A stretch of DNA of 7,614 nucleotides from a bacterium (GTDB taxonomy: Bacteria; SZUA-79; Acidulodesulfobacterales; Acidulodesulfobacteraceae): NCBI GenBank assembly GCA_021813595.1, contig JAKAKF010000191.1, forward strand, positions 1-7,614, written 5' to 3'. Under the pieces are notes generated by a model. It was not told the origin of the DNA. It made no database searches and saw nothing but the letters and a program-made list of their open reading frames with translations. Positions 1-7,172 of this stretch are shown one piece after another. The translations under genes and the position numbers were made by a program. Within the stretch, counting starts at the first letter, position 1; the number at the start of each line of letters is the position of its first letter.

Positions 1-477
1 GGAATGGGATTATCGCCTCACAGCAGTATAGGCAAAAGATACAATAATGCCAAAGGAGAGGTTTTTACGCCGTCTGCGGTAACCGGTTTTCCTAAGGGTT
101 TTAATAACGGCTTTATCTTAAAACTATATAATTCTGGAAGCGTATATAAGGGAGAGATAATTTTTGGCTTAAATACGGAACCAGATAATTGCATCTTGAA
201 AAATTTCCATTTTTTCCCCGATATGGGCTATAAAAAAGGTTATATTTCCGAATACCCTATGATAAATTATGAGTTAGACATAGCAAATATAAATAGGACG
301 GCGGATAAGAATTATTTAAGCGTATTCGATACAGGCTCTCTTGAAGAAAATTATATTTTAGATGATGTACGAAAAGAAGGCGTAGAGGTTTTTGGACTGC
401 CTGCTATGTTTAACAGAACGATGTATTGGGAGGCAAATCCATGGGGTATAGGATTTGAAGGAGACGTTAAAAAATAA
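1..477 (+). CDS. Pepsin-fold protein resembling DUF3443 (3' part only)
   Basis: The reading frame is open from the first base and ends at TAA 475-477, so only the last 158 codons are present and the real start lies upstream. An ATG at 4 is in frame but has no visible ribosome binding site. Residue numbers below count from it. Features seen are GLSP near the start, NNG at 34-36, a GEIIFGLNT block at 50-58, and FDTGS at 108-112 followed by GLPAMFNR at 131-138. The order NNG, G-x-(I/L)-FG-x-x-T, F-D-(S/T)-G-S, then GLP with an aromatic/Arg stretch is what I recall for DUF3443, a bacterial family with a pepsin-like aspartic protease fold. The D-T-G-S would be the second-lobe Asp motif. Whether it is an active protease cannot be judged without the N-terminal lobe. 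It ends 151 bases before the regulator and is separated from it by a strong promoter, so it probably belongs to the upstream transcription unit. The family call is from motif memory and is moderate at best. Confidence 0.5.
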   Translation, partial: GMGLSPHSSIGKRYNNAKGEVFTPSAVTGFPKGFNNGFILKLYNSGSVYKGEIIFGLNTEPDNCILKNFHFFPDMGYKKGYISEYPMINYELDIANINRTADKNYLSVFDTGSLEENYILDDVRKEGVEVFGLPAMFNRTMYWEANPWGIGFEGDVKK

Positions 478-511
478 CAATCCTATGTTTTTTTACGAGT
501 GCTATTTTTTC

Positions 512-541
512 TTGACAGATTATAATTGAATAAGTTATAAT
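512..541 (+). promoter_or_regulatory. Sigma-70 promoter for the TetR-family gene
   Basis: A perfect -35 box TTGACA (512-517) and a perfect -10 box TATAAT (536-541) are separated by 18 bases. This is the best consensus promoter in the window. It lies about 90 bases upstream of the regulator start, leaving an untranslated leader of roughly 80 bases. The octamer TTATAATT occurs twice around the spacer and -10 box (520-527 and 535-542) as a direct repeat. Confidence 0.75.
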
Positions 542-543
542 TT

Positions 544-569
544 AATAAAACGAGCGTTCTTTTTATTAT
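544..569 (+). promoter_or_regulatory. Candidate operator (inverted repeat at the start site)
   Basis: AACG-AG-CGTT (549-558) is a short perfect dyad flanked by imperfectly mirrored A-rich and T-rich arms (roughly 544-548 and 559-569). It sits just downstream of the -10 box, where a bound TetR-family dimer would block initiation, so autoregulation is plausible. The dyad is short and AT-rich surroundings make chance symmetry easy. I saw no second copy of the GC-containing core upstream of the rhodanese at 1279. Confidence 0.35.
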
Positions 570-628
570 AAATTAATTATATAATCTAATCGCATTTGGA
601 TTTTGCAATAATTATAGTTATTATCGGT

Positions 629-1216
629 ATGAGCGAAAAATCAAGAGACTTGACAAAAGAAAAAATATTTGAATACTGTATGAAAAGTTTTGCGGAAAGC
701 GGATACAGCAATGTCGGTATAAGAAATATTTCGGAGGGAACGGGGCTCAGCACCGGTGCAATATATTATCATTTTTCCTCTAAAGAAAAGATTGCCCAGT
801 TTTTATACGATACCGCAACAGGGCTTATTTTAGATAAAATCAGGACCGCTGTCGAAAAAACCGCTAACGACCAAGAGGCTTTAAAATCCATTATATTTAC
901 ATTATTTAAATTGACGGAGGAAGAACCGCATCTTATGAAATATGCGCTCTATGTCAAACACAAAGATTTTTTGCCCGAAGCACCGCCGATATGTTCATCT
1001 AAACCCTTTGAATACATAAAAAAATTTATAAAAGCTAAAATCAAAGAGGATGTTTTTGAGGATATGGATATGGTTATAGCGGCGTCTTTGATAATGGGGC
1101 CGATTATTCGGATAATTCAGTTAAAGATGGACGGCATCTTAAAACAGGATTTAATGAAATATACCGTTCCCTTGTTCGACGGCATTGCCAGGTCTATTTA
1201 TAAAAAGCAGGTTTAA
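629..1216 (+). CDS. TetR/AcrR-family transcriptional regulator
   Basis: This encodes 195 residues, the usual length for one-domain TetR-family repressors. Residues about 8-55 form the DNA-binding domain: TKEKIFEYCMKSFAESGY, then the helix-turn-helix IRNISEGTGLSTGAIYYHF, then SSKEKIAQFLY, all typical TetR_N features. The remaining part is helical and would hold the ligand pocket and dimer interface. The inducer cannot be predicted. I chose ATG 629 over an in-frame TTG at 596, because the extra 11 residues (DFAIIIVII-like) are hydrophobic and not part of the family. Neither start has a good ribosome binding site. The gene has its own strong promoter with a possible operator. The next gene starts 62 bases downstream on the same strand, so the sulfur cassette is a reasonable target, but that is inference from position. 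Confidence 0.9.
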   Translation: MSEKSRDLTKEKIFEYCMKSFAESGYSNVGIRNISEGTGLSTGAIYYHFSSKEKIAQFLYDTATGLILDKIRTAVEKTANDQEALKSIIFTLFKLTEEEPHLMKYALYVKHKDFLPEAPPICSSKPFEYIKKFIKAKIKEDVFEDMDMVIAASLIMGPIIRIIQLKMDGILKQDLMKYTVPLFDGIARSIYKKQV

Positions 1217-1223
1217 AAGCTTA

Positions 1224-1252
1224 TTGTTACCGTTATAAATTATAATTAAATT
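1224..1252 (+). promoter_or_regulatory. Weak candidate promoter before the sulfur cassette
   Basis: TTGTTA (1224-1229) and TAAATT (1247-1252) are separated by 17 bases, each matching four of six consensus positions. A perfect TATAAT also occurs at 1241-1246 but has no matching -35 at the right distance. The whole 62-base gap is AT-rich, so this is weak. Read-through from the TetR promoter at 512-541 is an alternative, since no terminator is visible between the regulator and the rhodanese. Confidence 0.25.
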
Positions 1253-1278
1253 ATTATTAACTAAAAAGGGGTATTATT

Positions 1279-1821
1279 ATGAAAAAGATTGTTTTGCTGC
1301 CTTTATTCTTATTTATCTTTTTATTGCTATTTGCAAGTACTTCTTACGCCGGAAGCATTAATCGGGAAATGGCAAAAAAAGCTTACAACGCTTTAAATCC
1401 GCATCATCTCGGCGTTAATGTCGCAGGAAAAGGTATGAACCCTGCCATGGGCAAGGTTGGAGTGCCGCAGATACTTGCTTCTGCTCTTTATAAAGAATTC
1501 ATAGTCGAACACAATCCGAAACACTATTTTATTATGGATGTAAGGGAACCCGTTGCGTTCGTAAAAATGGGCCACATACCCGGCGCTCATAATATTCCGT
1601 TGCAGGTAGTTTTTGCTCCAAAGTATTTAAAAATGCTCCCAAAACATCGTACGATAATATCTATTTGCTACGTCGGACAGTGGGAATCTATGGCGGCATC
1701 CATATTATTGTCAATGGGATATCATGTTAAGATACTAAGATTCGGCATGTCTTCGTGGAATAAAAATACCTACGTGCTTGTCCATCAGAAAGCGGTCAAA
1801 AATTATCCGCTGGTTCATTAA
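1279..1821 (+). CDS. Exported single-domain rhodanese (copy A)
   Basis: This is a 180-residue protein with a Sec signal peptide: Lys at 2-3, a hydrophobic core at about 4-19, and a likely cleavage site SYA|G after residue 24. A distinctive segment follows (MAKKAYNALNPHHLGV, 31-46; VGVPQILASALYKEF, 60-74). Then comes the rhodanese domain: DVREP (87-91), GHIPGAHNIP (98-107), and the active loop with Cys130 in CYVGQWES (130-137). Rhodaneses carry sulfane sulfur as a persulfide on this Cys, and Cys130 is the only Cys here. The loop differs from the common CxxGxR type by having Trp-Glu before Ser, so substrate preference may differ. The probable location is the periplasm. The ribosome binding site is a GGGG run at 1267-1270. 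It starts the cassette and has a close paralog at 5652. The fold is clear. The sulfur donor and acceptor are unknown, though the neighbours suggest delivery toward the YeeE/TusA relay. Confidence 0.9.
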   Translation: MKKIVLLPLFLFIFLLLFASTSYAGSINREMAKKAYNALNPHHLGVNVAGKGMNPAMGKVGVPQILASALYKEFIVEHNPKHYFIMDVREPVAFVKMGHIPGAHNIPLQVVFAPKYLKMLPKHRTIISICYVGQWESMAASILLSMGYHVKILRFGMSSWNKNTYVLVHQKAVKNYPLVH

Positions 1822-1850
1822 TATCCAATTAAAATAGGAATAAGCGCCTA

Positions 1851-2864
1851 ATGAAACTCAAAAAATATTTACCGGTTTTAATGGAAAAGAATTGGCAATT
1901 TTCATTGTTTTTACTTTTATCGTTAATCTTTTTAATCGATGCCGGAAATATTTATAATAATGCAAATGCGGCAACCGTGTCGAATTTTAAGGTCGGAAGG
2001 ACGCCTTATGGACTTGCGGTCAGCAAAAAAGATAATGTCTATGTCGCTATAAGCGGTTTTATTAATGTGGTCGAGCTTGACCAAAAAGGTAAATTAATTA
2101 AAAATATCATAACCGATTGGGCGCCTTCGGGGATTGCAGTCAATAAAGCAGGTTATATTTATGTATCGACAGGCATAGGAAATGTGGTAAAACTTAATAA
2201 AAAAGGGCAAATAGTTAAAAAGGTAAAAGTTGGAGTTACTCCGGCAGGAATCGCCATTGGACCCGATGGGGATATTTATGTAGCATCGATGCATTCTAGG
2301 ACAGTTACTAAATTAAACCCCGCCCTTAAGGTTTTAAAGGTTTTTTATGCGGGCATTGCGCCTTATGTCGTCGCTTTAGGGCAAAACGGCGATATATATG
2401 TTACGAACTTCCTAAATAAAGGCACAGTCACCGTCTTAAACAGAAGCGGAAAGATAATAAAAGTATTTAATGCGCAGAGAAAACCGGAAGGCATTGCCGT
2501 AGGTCCCGCCGGCAATATATATGTTACGAATGGGTTAAGCGACAGCGTTTTAAAATTTGACGCAAACGGAAAAATTTTAAAAAAATTTCACGTAAAAGGC
2601 GCGCCTTACGGAATTGCTCTAAGCACTACCGGAAGTATGTTCGTTGCCTGCATATATGCCGATAAAGTCGTGAAATTAAGCCGCGCCGGAAAATTCTTAA
2701 AAGCTTACAGGACAGGAATAAACCCGAATTTCATAGCGATAGACAATAGAGGCAATGTCTGGACGGCAAATAGCGGGGATGGAACGGTAACTAAAATTGG
2801 CGGTGCAACTAAGGGAAAAGAGTTTTTTCCATATAATGGACCTGTTTGGCAGGGTAGTTTTTAA
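1851..2864 (+). CDS. Exported seven-bladed NHL/YVTN-type beta-propeller
   Basis: This 337-residue protein has an N-terminal hydrophobic segment at about 17-30 and a probable cleavage site ANA|A after residue 40, so it should be exported, or anchored if uncleaved. Residues 49 to about 317 contain seven repeats of about 40 residues starting near 49, 89, 128, 168, 209, 249 and 289. Each follows the pattern G-x-x-P-x-G-I-A-(V/I), then a Gly turn, then (I/V)-Y-V-(A/T), then V-x-K-L-(N/D) and G-K-x-(L/I)-K. Seven repeats make a complete propeller of the NHL or YncE/YVTN type. Such propellers usually bind proteins or ligands and often lack recognisable catalytic residues; none is visible here. The ribosome binding site AGGAA (1836-1840) lies 10 bases before the ATG. 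Met11 is an in-frame alternative start. It lies 29 bases after rhodanese A and is probably co-transcribed. A role as scaffold or partner of the exported rhodaneses is inference. Confidence 0.85.
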   Translation: MKLKKYLPVLMEKNWQFSLFLLLSLIFLIDAGNIYNNANAATVSNFKVGRTPYGLAVSKKDNVYVAISGFINVVELDQKGKLIKNIITDWAPSGIAVNKAGYIYVSTGIGNVVKLNKKGQIVKKVKVGVTPAGIAIGPDGDIYVASMHSRTVTKLNPALKVLKVFYAGIAPYVVALGQNGDIYVTNFLNKGTVTVLNRSGKIIKVFNAQRKPEGIAVGPAGNIYVTNGLSDSVLKFDANGKILKKFHVKGAPYGIALSTTGSMFVACIYADKVVKLSRAGKFLKAYRTGINPNFIAIDNRGNVWTANSGDGTVTKIGGATKGKEFFPYNGPVWQGSF

Positions 2865-2904
2865 TTTTTAATTTAATATAAATATTTAAAACGGAGGGAT
2901 TTAA

Positions 2905-3165
2905 ATGGCTGAAGACAAAAATTTAGGGGAAGTTAAGCCGGATGAAAAGCTTGACGTAACGGGGGAGACATGCCCCATTCCGGAAACTATGGCGCATAAA
3001 AGGCTTAAAAAGATGTCGGTAGGACAGGTTCTGGAGGTTTATACCGACCATGCGGCGGCGGTAGAAAATTCTTTCCCGTCTATGCTCAATAAATTGAACT
3101 ACCCTTATTGCGTTACAAAAATAGCGCCTGGGGAGTTTATCATTAAAATTAAGAAAACAAGCTGA
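2905..3165 (+). CDS. tusA: TusA-family sulfur carrier protein
   Basis: An 86-residue cytoplasmic protein, about the usual TusA length. The family signature is DVTGETCPIPE, with the persulfide-carrying Cys23 in a C-P-x-P motif (23-26). A helix follows (ETMAHKRLKKM), then VGQVLEVYTDHAAAVEN (39-55) and a C-terminal strand (GEFIIKIKK). TusA proteins accept sulfane sulfur on this Cys and pass it to DsrE/TusD-type partners or to biosynthetic or oxidative enzymes. A second Cys near residue 69 (YPYCVTK) is not part of the known motif. A strong ribosome binding site, GGAGG (2893-2897), precedes the start. The gene stands immediately before a YeeE/YedE transporter, a pairing seen elsewhere (E. coli YeeE with the TusA-like YeeD), so it is likely the cytoplasmic acceptor of the imported sulfur species. 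The symbol reflects the family; orthology to E. coli tusA, which acts in tRNA thiolation, is not implied. Confidence 0.88.
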   Translation: MAEDKNLGEVKPDEKLDVTGETCPIPETMAHKRLKKMSVGQVLEVYTDHAAAVENSFPSMLNKLNYPYCVTKIAPGEFIIKIKKTS

Positions 3166-3184
3166 AAATGCAGCTTTGATTTTT
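3159..3184 (+). terminator. Small hairpin at the tusA stop codon, possible attenuator
   Basis: AAGCTG (3159-3164) and CAGCTT (3171-3176) form a perfect 6-bp stem with a six-base loop. The tusA stop codon overlaps the left arm. TGATTTTT follows, so the T run starts a few bases late. The stem is short. It may lower read-through into the transporter gene or protect the upstream message, or it may be chance. Confidence 0.25.
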
Positions 3185-3224
3185 AAAATTTAATTTAAAA
3201 TAATTTATAAGGAGAAACCAATTT

Positions 3225-4403
3225 ATGAATCCCTATTTTATCGAATACTCTATAATAGGAATTGCGGGGTTGATTTTCGGAGTGGCGCTGGAACGCGGCA
3301 GAATGTGTTTCGTCCTCGCTACTAATAATATTTTTACTGCCGGCGATACCAAGATATTGGAAGGTATTTTGTGGGCGTTCGGGATATCGGTTCTTGCTTT
3401 CGGCATCGTAGAATCTCTTGGGATAATTCCCGTGCATGCCGCAATTCAAGGTGTTTTTCCTATGGGTTGGTATGACCTTGTAGGTGCTCTTTTATTCGGA
3501 TTCGGCATAGGAATTTGCGGCGCCTGTATGAGCGGATTAATATTCAGGGCTGCTTCGGGGTTTACGCAAAACTGGATGCAATTATTCGGAATACTTGCCG
3601 GAACTATATTTTTTGCCTTTATAATCTTTCCGATGACCAATTTTCTTTACTGGATTTTACATACTATCCCGTGGCTTAGCATAAAACCGGGCATTTCGGA
3701 TTATATTCCGCATGAATGGTTTGGCGATGCGGCATGGGGACCCTTTGTCGTTGCTTTAATATTCGGCGGGTTTTTCCTTATCTTAGGGTTATATTTAACG
3801 AAGAGGAGGTTTAAAAAAATCAGCAATGAGCGCGGCGAAAATTATAAAGAGCCTATTATAACATGGAATATGCTGAAATTTAAAGAACCTTATTCTCCGA
3901 GGCTTGGCGGATTATTGTTTGCGGTTGTTGCGATAATAGTTTTGTTTGCCTCTTATTATACCGTCCATAAGGCGGCGTATTTGGGAGTAACGACTCCTTA
4001 CGGCAGTTTTGACACTTATATTTTGGCCCCGTTTATAAATTTATACAATGTGGTGGGACCTTATAAAGCTTCATTTTTACCAAAAATATCGTCCAATTGG
4101 TTTCAAATCGTTCCGGTTGCAATACCTATGACATTTCTTGTGATATGCACATTTGCGGGAGCTACTATTACCGCCATATTAGGCGGTGAATTCAAATGGA
4201 GGGTTCCAAGAAGAAAAATGATGTTTGTTCAAAATTTTGCCGGAGGAATTCTTACAGGAGTAGGCGCAAGAATTGCATTAGGCTGTAACATAGGAACTTT
4301 ATGGTCGGGGTTTCTAATGTTTTCATGGGCGGGAGTTTTATTTTTGCCTACGCTTGTGCTGGGGATGTATCTTGCTCTTAAGTTTCAGGAGCTTGTGTGG
4401 TAA
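3225..4403 (+). CDS. YeeE/YedE-family sulfur transporter
   Basis: A 392-residue polytopic inner-membrane protein with about nine to ten hydrophobic segments, matching the YeeE/YedE (PF04143) family. The structurally studied YeeE of Spirochaeta thermophila takes up thiosulfate, passing it along conserved cysteines. Equivalent motifs here are ERGRMCF (Cys28), GFGIGICGACMSGL (Cys98 and Cys101) and GARIALGCNIGTLWSG (Cys354). Cys308 lies in another membrane segment (FLVICTF). The two halves show the family's internal pseudo-repeat, with a G-x-G-A/C-rich loop in each. A basic cytosolic-type linker (TKRRFKKISNERGENYKEP, 192-210) joins the halves. The ribosome binding site AAGGAG (3209-3214) supports the ATG at 3225. 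It follows tusA by 59 bases, which fits import of thiosulfate or a related species to TusA. The family assignment is strong. The substrate is inferred from relatives. Confidence 0.88.
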   Translation: MNPYFIEYSIIGIAGLIFGVALERGRMCFVLATNNIFTAGDTKILEGILWAFGISVLAFGIVESLGIIPVHAAIQGVFPMGWYDLVGALLFGFGIGICGACMSGLIFRAASGFTQNWMQLFGILAGTIFFAFIIFPMTNFLYWILHTIPWLSIKPGISDYIPHEWFGDAAWGPFVVALIFGGFFLILGLYLTKRRFKKISNERGENYKEPIITWNMLKFKEPYSPRLGGLLFAVVAIIVLFASYYTVHKAAYLGVTTPYGSFDTYILAPFINLYNVVGPYKASFLPKISSNWFQIVPVAIPMTFLVICTFAGATITAILGGEFKWRVPRRKMMFVQNFAGGILTGVGARIALGCNIGTLWSGFLMFSWAGVLFLPTLVLGMYLALKFQELVW

Positions 4404-4447
4404 ATATAATAAATTTATTTTACTAAATTATGGAGGTTTAACCGAAA

Positions 4448-4735
4448 ATGGCTAAGAAGAAGAATCATAACTGGTGCGGAATTTCATTTATAGCCGCATA
4501 CGGATTATTTACTATATATGCTTCGTCTATTTTGAGTTATTTAAATAACGGCAAAGAAATAGGAAAATTATCCGGTACGGCTATCAGCGGAATAAAACAA
4601 AGCTTTATATTATTCGGCTTCATTTTCATCGGGATTGCAATAGTGCTGTTCTTAAGGGAGTATATATTTAAATCCGGCATTAAAGAAGCCGGAGACACGG
4701 AAAGCGGGGTGGCTCCGCATTATTTTAAGAAGTAA
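4448..4735 (+). CDS. Small two-helix membrane protein, function unknown
   Basis: I do not recognise this 95-residue protein. It starts with a basic stretch (AKKKNHNWCG), then a hydrophobic helix at about 11-30 (GISFIAAYGLFTIYASSILS). A polar loop follows (YLNNGKEIGKLSG), then a second helix at about 51-68 (QSFILFGFIFIGIAIVLFLR) and a hydrophilic tail of about 25 residues. By the positive-inside rule, a hairpin with both ends in the cytoplasm is likely. A single Cys (Cys10) sits at the membrane edge just before helix 1. GGAGG (4432-4436) lies 11 bases before the start. It lies 44 bases after the YeeE/YedE gene and 47 before a DsrE-like gene, so it is most likely an accessory subunit of the transporter or a membrane dock for the sulfur carriers. 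That role is inferred from position only. Confidence 0.8.
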   Translation: MAKKKNHNWCGISFIAAYGLFTIYASSILSYLNNGKEIGKLSGTAISGIKQSFILFGFIFIGIAIVLFLREYIFKSGIKEAGDTESGVAPHYFKK

Positions 4736-4782
4736 CGATGTCCAATAAATATTAATAATGGTAATATCGAGGAGACTGAACG

Positions 4783-5088
4783 ATGAAACTTGCACTGTTA
4801 ATAACCACGGATAAATATAAAAATCATGTGGAAAATATCCTGAGTTCGGCAGAACGATTAGGCTATGGAATAAAATGCTTTATGATGGACGACGGCGTTA
4901 ACCTGCTAAACGACGCAGACTATATTTACAAATTAAAAGAAGCAAATGCCCATGTTTCGTTATGCGAATATTCATGCAGCATAAGAAACATAAATGACAA
5001 GGTGGAGGGTTTTGAGTATGCCTCTCAATATGAAAATGCAACCATCATGAACGAATTAAAAGCCGAAGACAGGCTGCTGGTGTTTTGA
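4783..5088 (+). CDS. DsrE/TusD-like sulfur relay protein
   Basis: A 101-residue cytoplasmic protein with the DsrE-type Rossmann-like layout. It has an N-terminal strand (KLALLITTD, 2-10), a helix, a second strand leading to CFMMDDGVNLL (32-42), then ANAHVSLCEYSC (54-65) and a short C-terminal strand (DRLLVF). The block F-M-x-D-D-G-V followed about 20 residues later by a strand ending in Cys is the DsrE/TusD hallmark. The catalytic Cys of that family corresponds to Cys61 or Cys65. DsrE-like proteins accept persulfide sulfur from, or donate it to, TusA. It is somewhat shorter than DsrE/TusD of about 120-130 residues. GAGGAG (4769-4774) precedes the start. It is the first of three consecutive small genes of this fold superfamily, in the same order as dsrE, dsrF, dsrH. 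Symbols are withheld because similarity to true DsrE is distant. Confidence 0.75.
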   Translation: MKLALLITTDKYKNHVENILSSAERLGYGIKCFMMDDGVNLLNDADYIYKLKEANAHVSLCEYSCSIRNINDKVEGFEYASQYENATIMNELKAEDRLLVF

Positions 5089-5092
5089 TTAT

Positions 5093-5109
5093 AACTGATT
5101 GCGTCAGTT
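5093..5109 (+). other. Short intergenic hairpin
   Basis: AACTGA (5093-5098) and TCAGTT (5104-5109) form a perfect 6-bp stem around a five-base loop, just after the DsrE-like stop codon. There is no T run after it, so it is not a convincing terminator. It may be a message-processing or stability element, or chance. Confidence 0.3.
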
Positions 5110-5146
5110 TAATTTATTTATAATTTAAAATGGGGTATAATTAGAC

Positions 5147-5419
5147 ATGGTTAAAAAAATTGCCGTCCTTGTCCGCGACAGGCAGGCAGAAGCTCTTAGA
5201 ATGTCAGGTGGCTTGACATTGCTTGACGACGAGGTTAATGTTTATGTTCTCGACAGGAAACTTGAAAGCAATAAGGTTATAGATAAGCATCTCGACATGG
5301 TTCGGAATATGCTTGAGATACCGATGTTTACAAACTGCAAAGATAATCCGTACGATTATTTAACAGACGAGGATTTAGCTAATAAATTGCTTGATTATGA
5401 TATTGTAATACCTTATTAA
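5147..5419 (+). CDS. DsrF/TusC-like small protein of the DsrE fold superfamily
   Basis: A 90-residue protein with an N-terminal strand (KKIAVLVRD, 3-11) and a helix containing RQAEALRMSGGLTLLD (12-27). A strand follows (EVNVYVLDRKLE), then a helix, and a final strand (YDIVIPY) at the very C-terminus. The order of elements matches the DsrE/F/H superfamily, but the sequence is divergent. The only Cys is Cys64 in FTNCKDNPYD. It lies just after the third helix, where these folds often place functional residues, but equivalence to a catalytic Cys is not established. DsrF/TusC subunits of known heterohexamers are often not the sulfur-carrying subunit. The start is supported by a GGGG (5131-5135 region) before ATG 5147. 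Its placement between a DsrE-like and a DsrH-like gene is the main argument for calling it the F/C subunit. Confidence 0.65.
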   Translation: MVKKIAVLVRDRQAEALRMSGGLTLLDDEVNVYVLDRKLESNKVIDKHLDMVRNMLEIPMFTNCKDNPYDYLTDEDLANKLLDYDIVIPY

Positions 5420-5441
5420 ATTTTTTGGAGACTTTTAAAAC

Positions 5442-5615
5442 ATGAAAATACTTCATATCCTCAAAAGAGAACCGTCGGAGACGGAAAGAACAATTATTGA
5501 TATTCATTCTAAATCAAATGAAATTACGGTTTTTAAGCTTTATTCAGACGATGCTTTCAGTTACGATGATTTGTTGAAAAAGGTTGCCGAGCATGATAAG
5601 GTATTTTGCTGGTAA
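5442..5615 (+). CDS. Very short DsrH/TusB-like protein (57 aa)
   Basis: ATG 5442 to TAA 5613-5615 encodes 57 residues, below common gene-calling cutoffs. The start MKILHILKREPSE resembles the opening of TusB/DsrH proteins (M-L-H-x-L-x-R-S-P). Near the middle, NEITVFKLYSDDAF looks like the second strand with its following acidic turn. The end, VAEHDKVFCW, matches the habit of TusB/DsrH proteins of finishing with a strand and a final Trp after K-H. It is much shorter than the usual 90-100 residues, as if the central helices were deleted, yet both ends are intact. The sulfur-binding Cys known near position 20 of DsrH is absent (Asp20 here); the only Cys is the penultimate residue, Cys56. TTGGAG (5425-5430) lies 11 bases before the start, and the gap to the DsrF-like gene is only 22 bases. 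A coding function is well supported by start, ribosome site and spacing. The family call is moderate. Confidence 0.7.
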   Translation: MKILHILKREPSETERTIIDIHSKSNEITVFKLYSDDAFSYDDLLKKVAEHDKVFCW

Positions 5616-5641
5616 TAATAAAAAAAATTAATTTAAAAAAT

Positions 5642-5654
5642 GGAGAAAAACATG
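5642..5654 (+). promoter_or_regulatory. Ribosome binding site that decides the rhodanese B start
   Basis: GGAG (5642-5645) lies six bases before ATG 5652. An in-frame ATG at 5640 overlaps this GGAG and has only A-rich sequence upstream, so it is probably not used. Choosing 5652 gives a normal signal peptide beginning MKRIIFL. Confidence 0.7.
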
Positions 5655-6209
5655 AAAAGAATTATTTTTTTGAGTATGTTTTTTTTACTGATTTTGAGCG
5701 GTATATCTTATGCGCAGGGAATGATGAAAGGGCATAAGAACGCCGGCTGTATTGGAACATTTAACCGTATGCTGGCAAAAAGGGCGTATAATGCACTTAA
5801 TCCGCATCATGTAGGGGTAAAGCCCAATGCGGTTGCAGTGGTCGGTGTGCCTCAGATAATGGCTCCCGCTCTTTATAAAGAATATGTGACGGGACACAAT
5901 AGTAAGCATTATTATCTTTTAGATGTAAGGGAGCATCTGGCTTTTGTAAAAATGGGCCACATATCCGGCGCGCATAATATCCCACTTCAAGTGCTTTTTA
6001 CGCCGAAATATTTAAAAATGCTTCCAAAAAACCGCACGATAATATCTATATGTTATGTAGGGCAGTGGGAATCAATGGCGGCCGGATTACTTGCCACTAT
6101 GGGCTATCATGTTAAAATATTAAGATTCGGAATGTCTTCGTGGAATCCGAAAATAGACTTGCTTCACCGCAATAAAGTGGCATTCGGAAATTTTGCTTTA
6201 GCTCATTAA
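5652..6209 (+). CDS. Exported single-domain rhodanese (copy B)
   Basis: 185 residues from ATG 5652. A Sec signal peptide (hydrophobic core 4-17) ends at about SYA|QG after residue 21. A short mature N-terminus follows, HKNAGCIGTF (28-37), which contains an extra Cys33 absent from copy A. The rest mirrors copy A: LAKRAYNALNPHHVGV (41-56), VGVPQIMAPALYKEY (64-78), DVRE (91-94), GHISGAHNIP (102-111) and active-site Cys134 in CYVGQWES. By eye alignment the two copies share about 82 of 102 residues from VGVPQI to MSSWN, with the block around the active Cys identical. The linker between the conserved N-terminal piece and the domain is five residues shorter than in A. Placement after the DsrE/F/H-like trio, with copy A before the trio, brackets the sulfur cassette. 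Cys33 could form a disulfide or a second relay site with Cys134; this is untested. The rhodanese call is firm. Confidence 0.9.
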   Translation: MKRIIFLSMFFLLILSGISYAQGMMKGHKNAGCIGTFNRMLAKRAYNALNPHHVGVKPNAVAVVGVPQIMAPALYKEYVTGHNSKHYYLLDVREHLAFVKMGHISGAHNIPLQVLFTPKYLKMLPKNRTIISICYVGQWESMAAGLLATMGYHVKILRFGMSSWNPKIDLLHRNKVAFGNFALAH

Positions 6210-6260
6210 TAAAAATATTTAAATATTAAACAAAAGTTTGCTGAATATAGTAAATAATAA

Positions 6261-6283
6261 AGGAGGTGAAAAATATAATAATG
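6261..6283 (+). promoter_or_regulatory. Strong Shine-Dalgarno deciding the start of the Lys-rich protein
   Basis: AGGAGGTGA (6261-6269) is a near-perfect anti-16S match. A GTG inside it (6266) is in frame but is part of the ribosome site itself, so translation should begin at ATG 6281. The gap of about 11 bases from the end of the match is slightly long but acceptable. Confidence 0.7.
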
Positions 6284-6529
6284 AAAAAATCTATTAATAC
6301 CTTTTTAACCATTGCAGCTGTCTTTATGCTCTCTATCGGTTTCAGCGCTATCTCCGGCGGAAACGCGGCGGCCGCTTCTTATAGCGGAAACATGAAAATA
6401 AGCGGAAATATGCATATGGGCGCAAATATCGGATACGTGGGCAGCTCTCAGAAAAAATCAAAGAAAAAAGACAGCGGAAGCAGCAAAGCAAAATCTAAGT
6501 TAAATAAAATGGGCGCCGGTTGCCTGTAA
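6281..6529 (+). CDS. Small exported Lys/Ser-rich protein with C-terminal AGC motif
   Basis: I do not recognise this 82-residue protein. Residues 1 to about 32 are a signal peptide: MKKS, a hydrophobic core at 8-24, and an Ala-rich cleavage region (GNAAAAS). The mature part of about 50 residues begins with a small Gly/Asn/Met repeat (SGNMKI-SGNMHM-GANIGY, 35-52). It continues into a basic low-complexity stretch (KKSKKKDSGSSKAKSKLNK, 58-76) and ends GAGCL. Cys81 is the only Cys and is the next-to-last residue. The very strong ribosome site suggests high expression. The 20-bp hairpin starts eight bases after the stop. It follows rhodanese B by 71 bases. It could be a secreted cationic or surface-binding protein, or a thiol carrier given the AGC motif shared with both neighbouring exported proteins. 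No function can be assigned. Confidence 0.75.
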   Translation: MKKSINTFLTIAAVFMLSIGFSAISGGNAAAASYSGNMKISGNMHMGANIGYVGSSQKKSKKKDSGSSKAKSKLNKMGAGCL

Positions 6530-6536
6530 ATTAAAA

Positions 6537-6584
6537 ATTACAGAAAGGTTAAAAAGAGAATAACCTTTTTAACCTTTCTGTAAT
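6537..6584 (+). terminator. Perfect 20-bp hairpin after the cassette
   Basis: Positions 6537-6556 and 6565-6584 are exact reverse complements, separated by an eight-base loop (AGAATAAC). The stem begins ATTACAGAAAGG and ends TTAAAAAG. It is positioned eight bases after the stop codon of the Lys-rich protein and probably marks the end of the cassette transcript. It is not followed by an uninterrupted T run (TAATAAATTATTAATTATTTT follows only loosely), so a transcript-stabilising 3' structure or bidirectional terminator is as likely as a classical intrinsic terminator. A shorter alternative stem, GGTTA (6547-6551) with TAACC (6561-6565), is nested inside it. Confidence 0.7.
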
Positions 6585-6644
6585 AAATTATTAATTATTT
6601 TCAGGGCTTTTTTAATATAAATAAATAATGGGGAGAAAATTAAA

Positions 6645-7172
6645 ATGCGATATTTGATAATGACAGTTTTAATATTTATTACAATTGTTTTTGCTAGCGC
6701 AGTTTATGCTGTTCCATCCTACGCTTCTGCTTTATCTGCTAAAAAAAGCGCAGCTAAAATTGCAATGATAAGAAAATATTTCCTATCCCATACTTACGAT
6801 TTCGGCCCGATTTTTTATAAATATCATCCCGGCCCAAATTGGTATCTTCAACATATTAAAGGCTTAAGGCTTACTCCAAGCCAGTTAATAATAATTAAAA
6901 AATTAGACGCAGGAATGATTAAAGATACTATTTTGGGAATAAAGAATCTTAAGGCCGCATACTCCAATTACAAAAAAGATTCTATGGAAGTTGCTCCAAA
7001 AATAAAAACTATTATCAACGATATAAAAAAAATAGGCAAGGCGCAAACTTACCTTGCTTATGAGATGGTGCCGTATCACCTTAAAAGCTATTCTATTTTA
7101 ACGCCTTCCCAGAAAAAAATATTTAAAGAGTTAAGAATGACTAAACTAAATGCTGGATGCATGGCAAAGTGA
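6645..7172 (+). CDS. Exported Spy/CpxP-like protein with two LTPSQ motifs
   Basis: A 175-residue protein with a signal peptide (hydrophobic core 4-19; possible cleavage VYA|V after 22 or SYA|S after 27). The mature protein is Lys-rich and mostly helical. LTPSQ occurs twice, at 76-80 (LRLTPSQLIIIKKLDAGM) and 152-156 (ILTPSQKKIFKELRM). Two L-T-x-x-Q motifs heading helices are the mark of the Spy/CpxP superfamily, periplasmic chaperones and stress or metal sensors; the helical content and size (about 150 residues mature) agree. The region HTYDFGPIFYKYHPGPNWYLQH (49-70) is His/aromatic-rich and could bind metal. Its end, KLNAGCMAK, carries the only Cys (172) and is not a Spy feature. GGGGAG (6630-6635) precedes the start by nine bases. 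It lies after the 20-bp hairpin, so it may be separately transcribed, and it ends at a terminator. Superfamily placement is moderately sure. The specific role is unknown. Confidence 0.75.
   Translation: MRYLIMTVLIFITIVFASAVYAVPSYASALSAKKSAAKIAMIRKYFLSHTYDFGPIFYKYHPGPNWYLQHIKGLRLTPSQLIIIKKLDAGMIKDTILGIKNLKAAYSNYKKDSMEVAPKIKTIINDIKKIGKAQTYLAYEMVPYHLKSYSILTPSQKKIFKELRMTKLNAGCMAK

Follow-up and report, generated by a model that had tools for sequence, protein, structure and literature searches.

Import of sulfur into the cytoplasm for oxidation has been called poorly understood (PMC11582611). Among the closest described systems are the YTD clusters of cable bacteria and their relatives, reported to consist of yedE, tusA and dsrE together with conserved hypothetical genes (PMC12998232). 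DsrE and the products of two of these hypothetical genes (CHP1 and CHP2) were identified in 2026 as DsrEFH type II, and sulfur transfers from TusA to DsrE type II and on to DsrC were measured for Electronema (PMC13293266). Modelling in PMC13047784 gave a DsrEFH-like architecture that its authors regard as a structural analogue with a possible role in disproportionation. Here we describe a locus in a 7,614-nucleotide stretch of DNA from a bacterium of the Acidulodesulfobacteraceae (assembly GCA_021813595.1, contig JAKAKF010000191.1; the whole stretch is referred to as the window). Judged from its sequence, the TusA-YeeE-DsrE/F/H centre of this locus is the published YTD or DsrEFH type II cluster. 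We lean, if only slightly, towards reading the entire locus as a relay of this kind for import and delivery of sulfane sulfur, extended outside the membrane and supplied, at least in part, by a Sox system that lacks SoxC.

The locus shares with the YTD clusters (PMC13293266, PMC12998232, PMC13047784) yeeE/yedE, tusA, dsrE and two DsrF/DsrH-like genes, the conserved DsrE cysteine and dsrAB elsewhere in the genome. It differs in the addition of a two-helix membrane protein (tm2), a propeller, an exported rhodanese, an exported protein with a C-terminal cysteine arm (Cys-arm protein) and a TetR gene, in a YeeE that is distant in the tree and in that type I DsrEFH is also present, as shown in one relative (G005). 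A second comparison is offered by the SoxT1A module of Hyphomicrobium denitrificans, where SoxT1A is required for sulfur oxidation and where, as described in PMC11582611, a YeeE-like transporter likewise lies by truncated sox genes together with a small membrane protein and sulfur transferases. In Hyphomicrobium sHdr-LbpA acts as the sink, and Rhd442, which is cytoplasmic, and a DsbA-like protein are its partners, whereas here the sink would be DsrEFH type II together, probably, with Dsr, and the rhodanese is an exported one. The small membrane protein there has 56 amino acids, one helix and no cysteine, whereas tm2 has two helices and an invariant cysteine. The thiosulfate uptake systems YeeE-YeeD and TsuA-TsuB (structures 6leo and 8j4c) employ the same transporter and TusA-like families, but the NCBIfam cut-offs for TsuA/TsuB were not reached in the window (85.9/400 for NF052577, 47.2/645 for NF041049 and 15.3/147.5 for NF041048) and the context here is dissimilatory. 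The core is thus published and the sox link resembles SoxT1A modules, while the Cys-arm protein is the novel part; no paper on the cassette, its sox linkage or the arm protein was among the matches listed from the open-access literature.

Layout of the locus

An initial sequence-only reading had noted nine contiguous same-strand genes at 1279-6209. These were confirmed, with intergenic gaps of 22-59 nt, and lie in a longer same-strand run of TetR, RhdA, propeller, TusA, YeeE, tm2, DsrE-, DsrF- and DsrH-like genes, RhdB, the Cys-arm protein and an LTXXQ-like protein, followed by QueH. The features are:

512-541, + strand: sigma-70 promoter match, TTGACA-18-TATAAT (12/12), 5' of the TetR gene; a consensus match only
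629-1216, + strand: TetR-family regulator (PF00440, 42.8 bits); alternative open reading frame (ORF) start at TTG 596
1279-1821, + strand: RhdA, exported rhodanese (PF00581, 52.3 bits)
1851-2864, + strand: exported seven-bladed NHL/Vgb-like propeller; single invariant cysteine, Cys267
2905-3165, + strand: TusA sulfur carrier (PF01206, 61.6 bits); CPxP motif, Cys23
3225-4403, + strand: YeeE/YedE (SoxT-like) sulfur transporter (PF04143, 166.9 bits); Cys28, Cys98, Cys101 and Cys354
4448-4735, + strand: tm2, two-helix membrane protein; invariant N-terminal NHNWCG (Cys10)
4783-5088, + strand: DsrE subunit of a DsrEFH type II-like complex; predicted active Cys61
5147-5419, + strand: DsrF-like subunit
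5442-5615, + strand: DsrH-like subunit, 57 amino acids with a terminal Trp; aligns with 55-59-amino-acid proteins adjoining dsrE/dsrF in other phyla
5640-6209, + strand: RhdB, exported rhodanese (PF00581, 49.1 bits); active loop CYVGQW (Cys138)
6281-6529, + strand: Cys-arm protein, 82 amino acids, exported, lysine-rich; ends in invariant KMGAGCL
6537-6584: 20-bp perfect inverted repeat 3' of the arm gene; no T run on the + strand, terminator-like on the - strand only
6645-7172, + strand: LTXXQ-like exported protein, an optional member (weak PF07813, 17.8 bits, cut-off 24.3); ends NAGCMAK

Signal peptides, lipoboxes and transmembrane helices were called by hydropathy and eye, and names without a cited family match, such as DsrD or OMP-like (outer-membrane-protein-like), were assigned by eye. 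The promoter match has a chance rate of 0.01 12/12 matches (16-18 nt spacing) per shuffled window, counted on both strands over 200 shuffles.

Conservation of the unit

One scan of genome contigs yielded 36 loci. L001-L010 carry a YeeE 85-100% identical to that of the window over its whole length, L011 is a partial eleventh locus (YeeE 82% identical) and L012-L036 are distant. The phylum was sampled with 30 genomes of Ca. Acidulodesulfobacteriota, for which the completeness of the metagenome-assembled genomes was not given; L009 belongs to Ca. Acididesulfobacter diazotrophicus AP1 of the same phylum, from the uncultured acid-mine lineage of PMC6776010. The core order tusA-yeeE-tm2-dsrE-dsrF-dsrH-rhdB, on one strand, was observed in all 12 genomes that carry the cassette (12 of the 30, namely those of L001-L010 together with G016 and G019), with rhdB of L006 cut by the contig end. 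Three markers, tm2, the RhdB-type rhodanese at E 1e-15 and close DsrF-II at E <= 1.2e-38, were each found in 12/30 genomes and these were the identical 12, while the propeller at E 1e-30 was found in those 12 and three others. As the genomes are related, this overlap does not amount to 12 independent events. The cassette sits at several sites, with sox genes upstream in some loci and other genes beside L009, L010 and L087, which indicates that its genes belong together and that their adjacency is not accidental. The scattering in relatives that a coincidental grouping would entail was not seen; the core order is kept at different genomic sites.

The limits of 1279-6209 first given to the unit proved too narrow. 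A TetR gene stands beside the cassette in 12 of 13 relative loci, that is in all whose sequence reaches that position (L004 does not), and the Cys-tailed exported gene at 6281-6529 recurs downstream of rhdB as detailed below; by neighbourhood both belong with the unit. The propeller is near tusA in all relative loci but L002, and lies on the far side of tetR in L006. Only in the window and in L001 does RhdA separate tetR from the propeller (2 of the 13 loci in which the interval is visible), L001 being taken as the same species on account of 97.5% DNA identity to the window over 7.2 kb. RhdA orthologues, 91% identical, stand alone at unlinked sites in G006:C80 and G010:C18, and a third standalone copy in G016:C2 is RhdA-like by eye. 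Since RhdA is standalone elsewhere and next to the cassette in so few loci, the bracketing of the unit by two exported rhodaneses, to which the sequence-only reading had given weight, is a local arrangement. On this distribution RhdA is a species-specific neighbour not ancestral to the unit, and RhdB, which directly follows dsrH in 12/12 loci (the L006 copy cut by the contig end), is an ancestral member. Conservation of gene order, proposed as a check for all nine families, held for the seven core genes in every cassette genome, and failed for RhdA and for the propeller of L002 and L006.

Matches to DsrF-II in 26 of the 30 genomes were not read as presence of the cassette, as only the 12 at E <= 1.2e-38 sit in it. 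Weaker matches (E 1e-21 to 1e-15) sit in other neighbourhoods, three weak ones having been left out of the neighbourhood reading. These neighbourhoods, named by eye, hold either a dsrF/dsrH-like pair by an aldolase-like gene, in several cases with an ammonium-transporter-like gene, or a lone dsrF-like gene.

Sox and Dsr genes around the cassette

SoxB or its 3' end was found upstream in 6 of 10 informative relative loci (L001, L002, L003, L005, L007 and L011), at a distance of 0.2-5.1 kb from tetR (nearest in L003 and L005, furthest in L001). The ten loci represent nine bins, L002 and L011 sharing one; L004, L008 and L088 show too little. In L006 only the exported DsrE-like genes of the sox operon are present, and L009, L010 and L087 have other neighbours. 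The fullest arrangement is that of L007, where a SoxY-like protein, SoxZ (NCBIfam score 83.3, cut-off 76), a DUF302 protein, SoxB (630.7, cut-off 550) and SoxA (138.8, cut-off 110) are followed by DsrE-domain genes, tetR and the cassette. In L001 an OMP-like gene, a double-rhodanese lipoprotein gene and other ORFs lie between SoxB and tetR, and the last of them opens the window.

Three exported DsrE-domain proteins are encoded beside soxA/soxB in L007 (5118-7690), L011 (1827-4436) and L002 (594-3872), and each has one cysteine apart from the signal or lipobox; they score over the Pfam cut-off except for the first of L002 (22.3 vs 22.7). These proteins are candidate acceptors of sulfur from SoxY. 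L002 encodes a fourth exported protein, similar in size, that has a single cysteine and no Pfam match.

Across the phylum soxB was detected in 18/30 genomes at E 0.001, in 15 of them over the cut-off. As in the SoxT1A module, a YeeE-like gene stands beside sox in relatives, sox not being in the window itself. The Sox system was scored as truncated and without SoxCD on the soxC result (over the cut-off in 0/30 genomes, with weak matches below it in 21/30); soxD was not searched for.

dsrA scored over the cut-off in 12/12 cassette genomes and in 23/30 of the phylum. In two genomes it lies downstream of rhdB on the same strand and contig, at 18 kb in G002:C168 and at 19 kb in G005:C26. From 19 kb downstream in G005, dsrA, dsrB, dsrC and dsrK pass curated cut-offs and DsrM falls below (99.5 vs 300). 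An in-frame TAG in dsrA of several genomes was considered as recoding and rejected, the copies read in G005 and G003 having an ordinary terminal stop, doubled. It follows that the lack of a terminal sulfur enzyme, from which a dedicated uptake and delivery module had been deduced, holds within the window and not in the relatives, where dsrA is present in every cassette genome and where sox genes, or in two genomes dsrA, lie near some of the loci. According to PMC13293266, dsrAB and DsrEFH type II co-occur in 73.9%, a typical and not strictly defining association. For the host order PMC6776010 reports dsrAB, dsrD, dsrL, dsrEFH, sqr and soxABYZ, and lists sirA or sirA-like genes among the top transcripts without stating whether the tusA of the window is included; its main text contains none of the terms 'YedE', 'rhodanese' and 'tusA'.

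The TusA-YeeE-DsrEFH core and its cysteines

The YTD gene content is contiguous in the window and in all cassette genomes, with tm2 inserted between yeeE and dsrE. Cys61 of DsrE is invariant in a 14-row alignment that covers the host lineage, Nitrospirota, Actinomycetota and one further bacterium, and would be equivalent to Cys67 of Electronema. A predicted model of the DsrF-like protein matches DsrE/F folds; Foldseek alone returned no match at E 0.001 for the DsrF-like or the DsrH-like model, and profile searches of the PDB gave a weak match for DsrE (2hy5_A, E 0.14), none for DsrF and one irrelevant chain for DsrH. The YeeE profile matches the YeeE structures 6leo (E 5.3e-23) and 8j4c. The TusA family also goes by the name sirA; against the NCBIfam TusA model 28.3 bits were obtained at a cut-off of 78. 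The nearest NCBIfam models are YedE/FdhT and TsuA.

The 95-amino-acid tm2 had no Pfam or NCBIfam match over the cut-off and no DsrE-family match at E 1, and is in this respect unlike DsrE2, the two-helix DsrE. In the protein collection it has 11 relatives, all at least 65% identical, and a search via shared 5-residue words in which 7,996 candidates were scored gave no homologues beyond this close set. The propeller has 2 relatives there at E <= 1e-40.

Cysteines invariant across 12-13 sequences are TetR C28 and C133 (12/12, numbered from TTG 596), propeller C267, TusA C23 and C69, YeeE C28, C98, C101 and C354, tm2 C10, DsrE C32, C61 and C65, DsrH C56 and RhdB C138, with TusA Cys23 and the four YeeE cysteines invariant in 13/13. 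C64 of DsrF is not invariant (11/13). An invariant cysteine is accordingly found in 8 of the 9 proteins checked, the DsrF-like protein being the exception and RhdA lying outside the check. The proposal of a coherent sulfur-relay unit that includes an unrecognised two-helix protein and a propeller is in this way supported, as its genes co-occur, keep their order and retain these residues.

An exported protein with a C-terminal cysteine

The gene for the Cys-arm protein directly follows rhdB in 9/9 relative loci with the whole stretch (L001, L002, L003, L005, L007, L008, L009, L010 and L087), and its start is visible before the contig end in G004 and G019. The lysine-rich body of the protein is variable and the KMGAGCL end invariant. 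In the 30 phylum genomes it was matched at E < 1e-8 only in cassette genomes (11/12, the G006 contig breaking off within rhdB); among the genomes that lack the cassette the top match had E 6e-4. No Pfam family was matched at E 0.01.

The protein resembles SoxY by analogy, being exported and having a Gly-flanked C-terminal arm whose end bears a cysteine. The arm motif of SoxY is GGCGG, and the SoxY-like protein of L007 ends in GGC. In contrast to SoxY, the Cys-arm protein has no SoxY domain, no SoxZ was found among the scanned ORFs of the window, its body is variable and lysine-rich and its end is KMGAGCL.

The search of the phylum genomes with the arm protein also matched the C-terminal part of 250-251-amino-acid frames in G009 (E 2e-9) and G008 (E 3e-10). 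In these fusions a lipobox is followed by a rhodanese core, which shares 82% identity with RhdB and has the loop CYVGQW, and the tail KLNKMGAGCL forms the C-terminus. The DsrA tree places G008 and G009 as sisters, so they count as one fusion event; that such a fusion occurs naturally is good circumstantial evidence for joint action of rhodanese and arm. We tentatively suggest, with the odds rather against it, that the arm protein is a new swinging-arm carrier of sulfane sulfur, independent of SoxY and SoxZ, whose near-terminal cysteine would be loaded by the exported rhodanese and would present sulfur to YeeE with tm2. It may, with the same reserve, act in free form in the species of the window and also fused to a lipid-anchored rhodanese in the two sister relatives. 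If so, the arm protein would be a missing link that joins sulfur chemistry in the periplasm to the Dsr pathway of the cytoplasm.

The LTXXQ-like protein at 6645-7172 is a second possible C-terminal cysteine arm. NAGC followed by three residues stands at its end in 5 aligned relatives, and a search behind the arm gene did not reveal it in L002, L010 and L087.

Proposed relay and alternative explanations

Gene content, gene order, co-occurrence, the sox and dsr neighbourhood, the arm-rhodanese fusion and the invariant cysteines are all directly observed. On these, the following relay can be proposed. Sulfane sulfur would be made outside the cytoplasmic membrane by the truncated Sox system without SoxC, and possibly also from polysulfide, and would be taken up by exported RhdB (Cys138) and the C-terminal cysteine of the arm protein. 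It would then pass through the cysteine-lined YeeE, which tm2 would assist at the membrane as an accessory subunit, to TusA (Cys23) and from there to the DsrEFH type II complex, at Cys61 of its DsrE. This complex would most likely deliver to DsrC, followed by DsrAB in the oxidative direction. The propeller would be a conserved exported partner, and TetR probably regulates the unit. Each transfer step, the direction of flow, the substrate, the parts played by tm2, the propeller and TetR, the pairing of each exported protein with a partner and a continuous cysteine-to-cysteine path are what we infer from this arrangement.

Several observations weigh against such a Sox-fed import relay. Sox is not a strict partner, soxB being present in 9/12 cassette genomes but also in 9/18 others, and in G008-G010 and G016 full-length soxB is on another contig. 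In L007, the sole fuller sox operon seen, no SoxX was identified and the SoxY candidate scored 99.8, below the cut-off of 125. dsrA also occurs in 11/18 genomes without the cassette. Canonical type I DsrE, DsrF and DsrH that pass curated cut-offs adjoin dsrABC in G005, and strong DsrE-family pairs were found in 9 of 10 genomes searched; type I DsrEFH could hence suffice for DsrC, with type II free for another task. The fold search did not show the DsrH identity of the 57-amino-acid protein, and the tree, which carries long-branch warnings, sets the YeeE apart from 11 DsrEFH-II-linked YeeEs. Finally, of 17 cysteine columns 15 are invariant (near-identical L001 left out), where 9.9 would be expected at the rate specific to each protein, and as cysteines are conserved in general this excess is weak; cysteine conservation fits a relay and is weak evidence alone.

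The strongest competitor, although an unlikely one, is the role originally suggested for YTD clusters, in which the genes would act in the oxidative branch when elemental sulfur or thiosulfate is disproportionated, and not in Sox-fed oxidation. YTD proteins are reported as more abundant in Desulfolithobacter during thiosulfate disproportionation (PMC9751629), and the host order has reductive-type DsrAB (PMC6776010). The complete cluster is present in all elemental-sulfur disproportionators of PMC12998232, but that study finds it as well in some strains for which the evidence speaks against disproportionation. DsrEFH type II was found in only 25 of 63 cultured disproportionators in PMC13293266, whose authors call the disproportionation reading poorly supported, and the SoxB genes upstream of six informative loci likewise speak against it. 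The locus in this way bears on the dispute over whether DsrEFH type II is a mark of sulfur oxidation or of disproportionation, and its sox neighbourhood favours oxidation in this lineage.

Outward flow is improbable. The relay would then dispose of surplus cytoplasmic sulfane sulfur from sulfate reduction onto exported carriers, in line with the several exported carrier-like proteins present and with the exchange of sulfur in both directions between TusA and DsrEFH type II in vitro (PMC13293266). Transfer from DsrEFH type II to DsrC was however one-way in vitro in the same study, and the YeeE-family proteins of PMC11582611 import or signal inward. Marginally less probable still is a signalling unit in which the small amount of sulfur let in by YeeE would serve solely as a message to TetR, as SoxT1B is reported to do for SoxR (PMC11582611). 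The TetR gene beside the unit, its two invariant cysteines and the consensus promoter match in front of it would suit this function, but signalling has no need for TusA, a DsrEFH complex and an exported rhodanese, all kept together in every cassette genome. Least likely of all is an assimilatory or tRNA-thiolation sulfur supply resembling TsuAB or TusBCD: the TusA and YeeE families also serve assimilation and the nearest NCBIfam models are the YedE/FdhT and TsuA ones, yet the curated cut-offs are far off (TsuA 85.9/400 and 47.2/645, TusA 28.3/78) and dsrA is in all cassette genomes, though also in others.

The relatives line up truncated Sox, exported DsrE-like proteins, exported rhodanese, Cys-arm protein, YeeE, TusA and DsrEFH type II on one chromosome stretch, with dsrA on the same contig in two genomes. 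The locus thereby names candidates for each hand-over and provides a natural rhodanese-arm fusion.

Additional observations

L093 and L095-L106 form a separate conserved group with the dsrF/dsrH-like pair and the aldolase-like gene, and several of them also carry an SQR-like flavoprotein with TusA- and DsrE-like genes; most of these names were given by eye. The patchy distribution of the cassette on the DsrA tree led horizontal transfer to be considered, and it is not claimed because missing contigs can also give all-or-none absence of one locus. In this tree 7 of 19 inner branches are open, G002 is represented by its C168 copy alone and G027 was left out (partial match below the cut-off). G002 holds two dsrA copies (C168 and C108) and a second partial cassette (L011) in one bin, and is probably two species binned together.

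Identity between the window (positions 1-7157) and L001 jumps from 84-98% upstream (250-base steps) to 100% from about position 2750 to 7000, which suggests strain recombination or a mosaic low-coverage assembly.

Paralogues of the propeller in G002, G007 and G017 lie beside OMP-like and lipoprotein genes, named by eye. Double-rhodanese lipoproteins were observed near OMP-like genes at L001:3203-4384 (two PF00581 stretches) and L055:7016-8254 (blastp). In L055 a propeller paralogue, 54% identical, follows the double-rhodanese gene, so that a cluster of exported rhodanese, OMP-like protein and propeller appears again. Downstream of the cassette, L009 (14491-14751) and L008 (6971-7231) carry a second TusA-like gene in which CPNTE replaces CPIPE, and a fragment that matches only the last 37 residues of RhdB.

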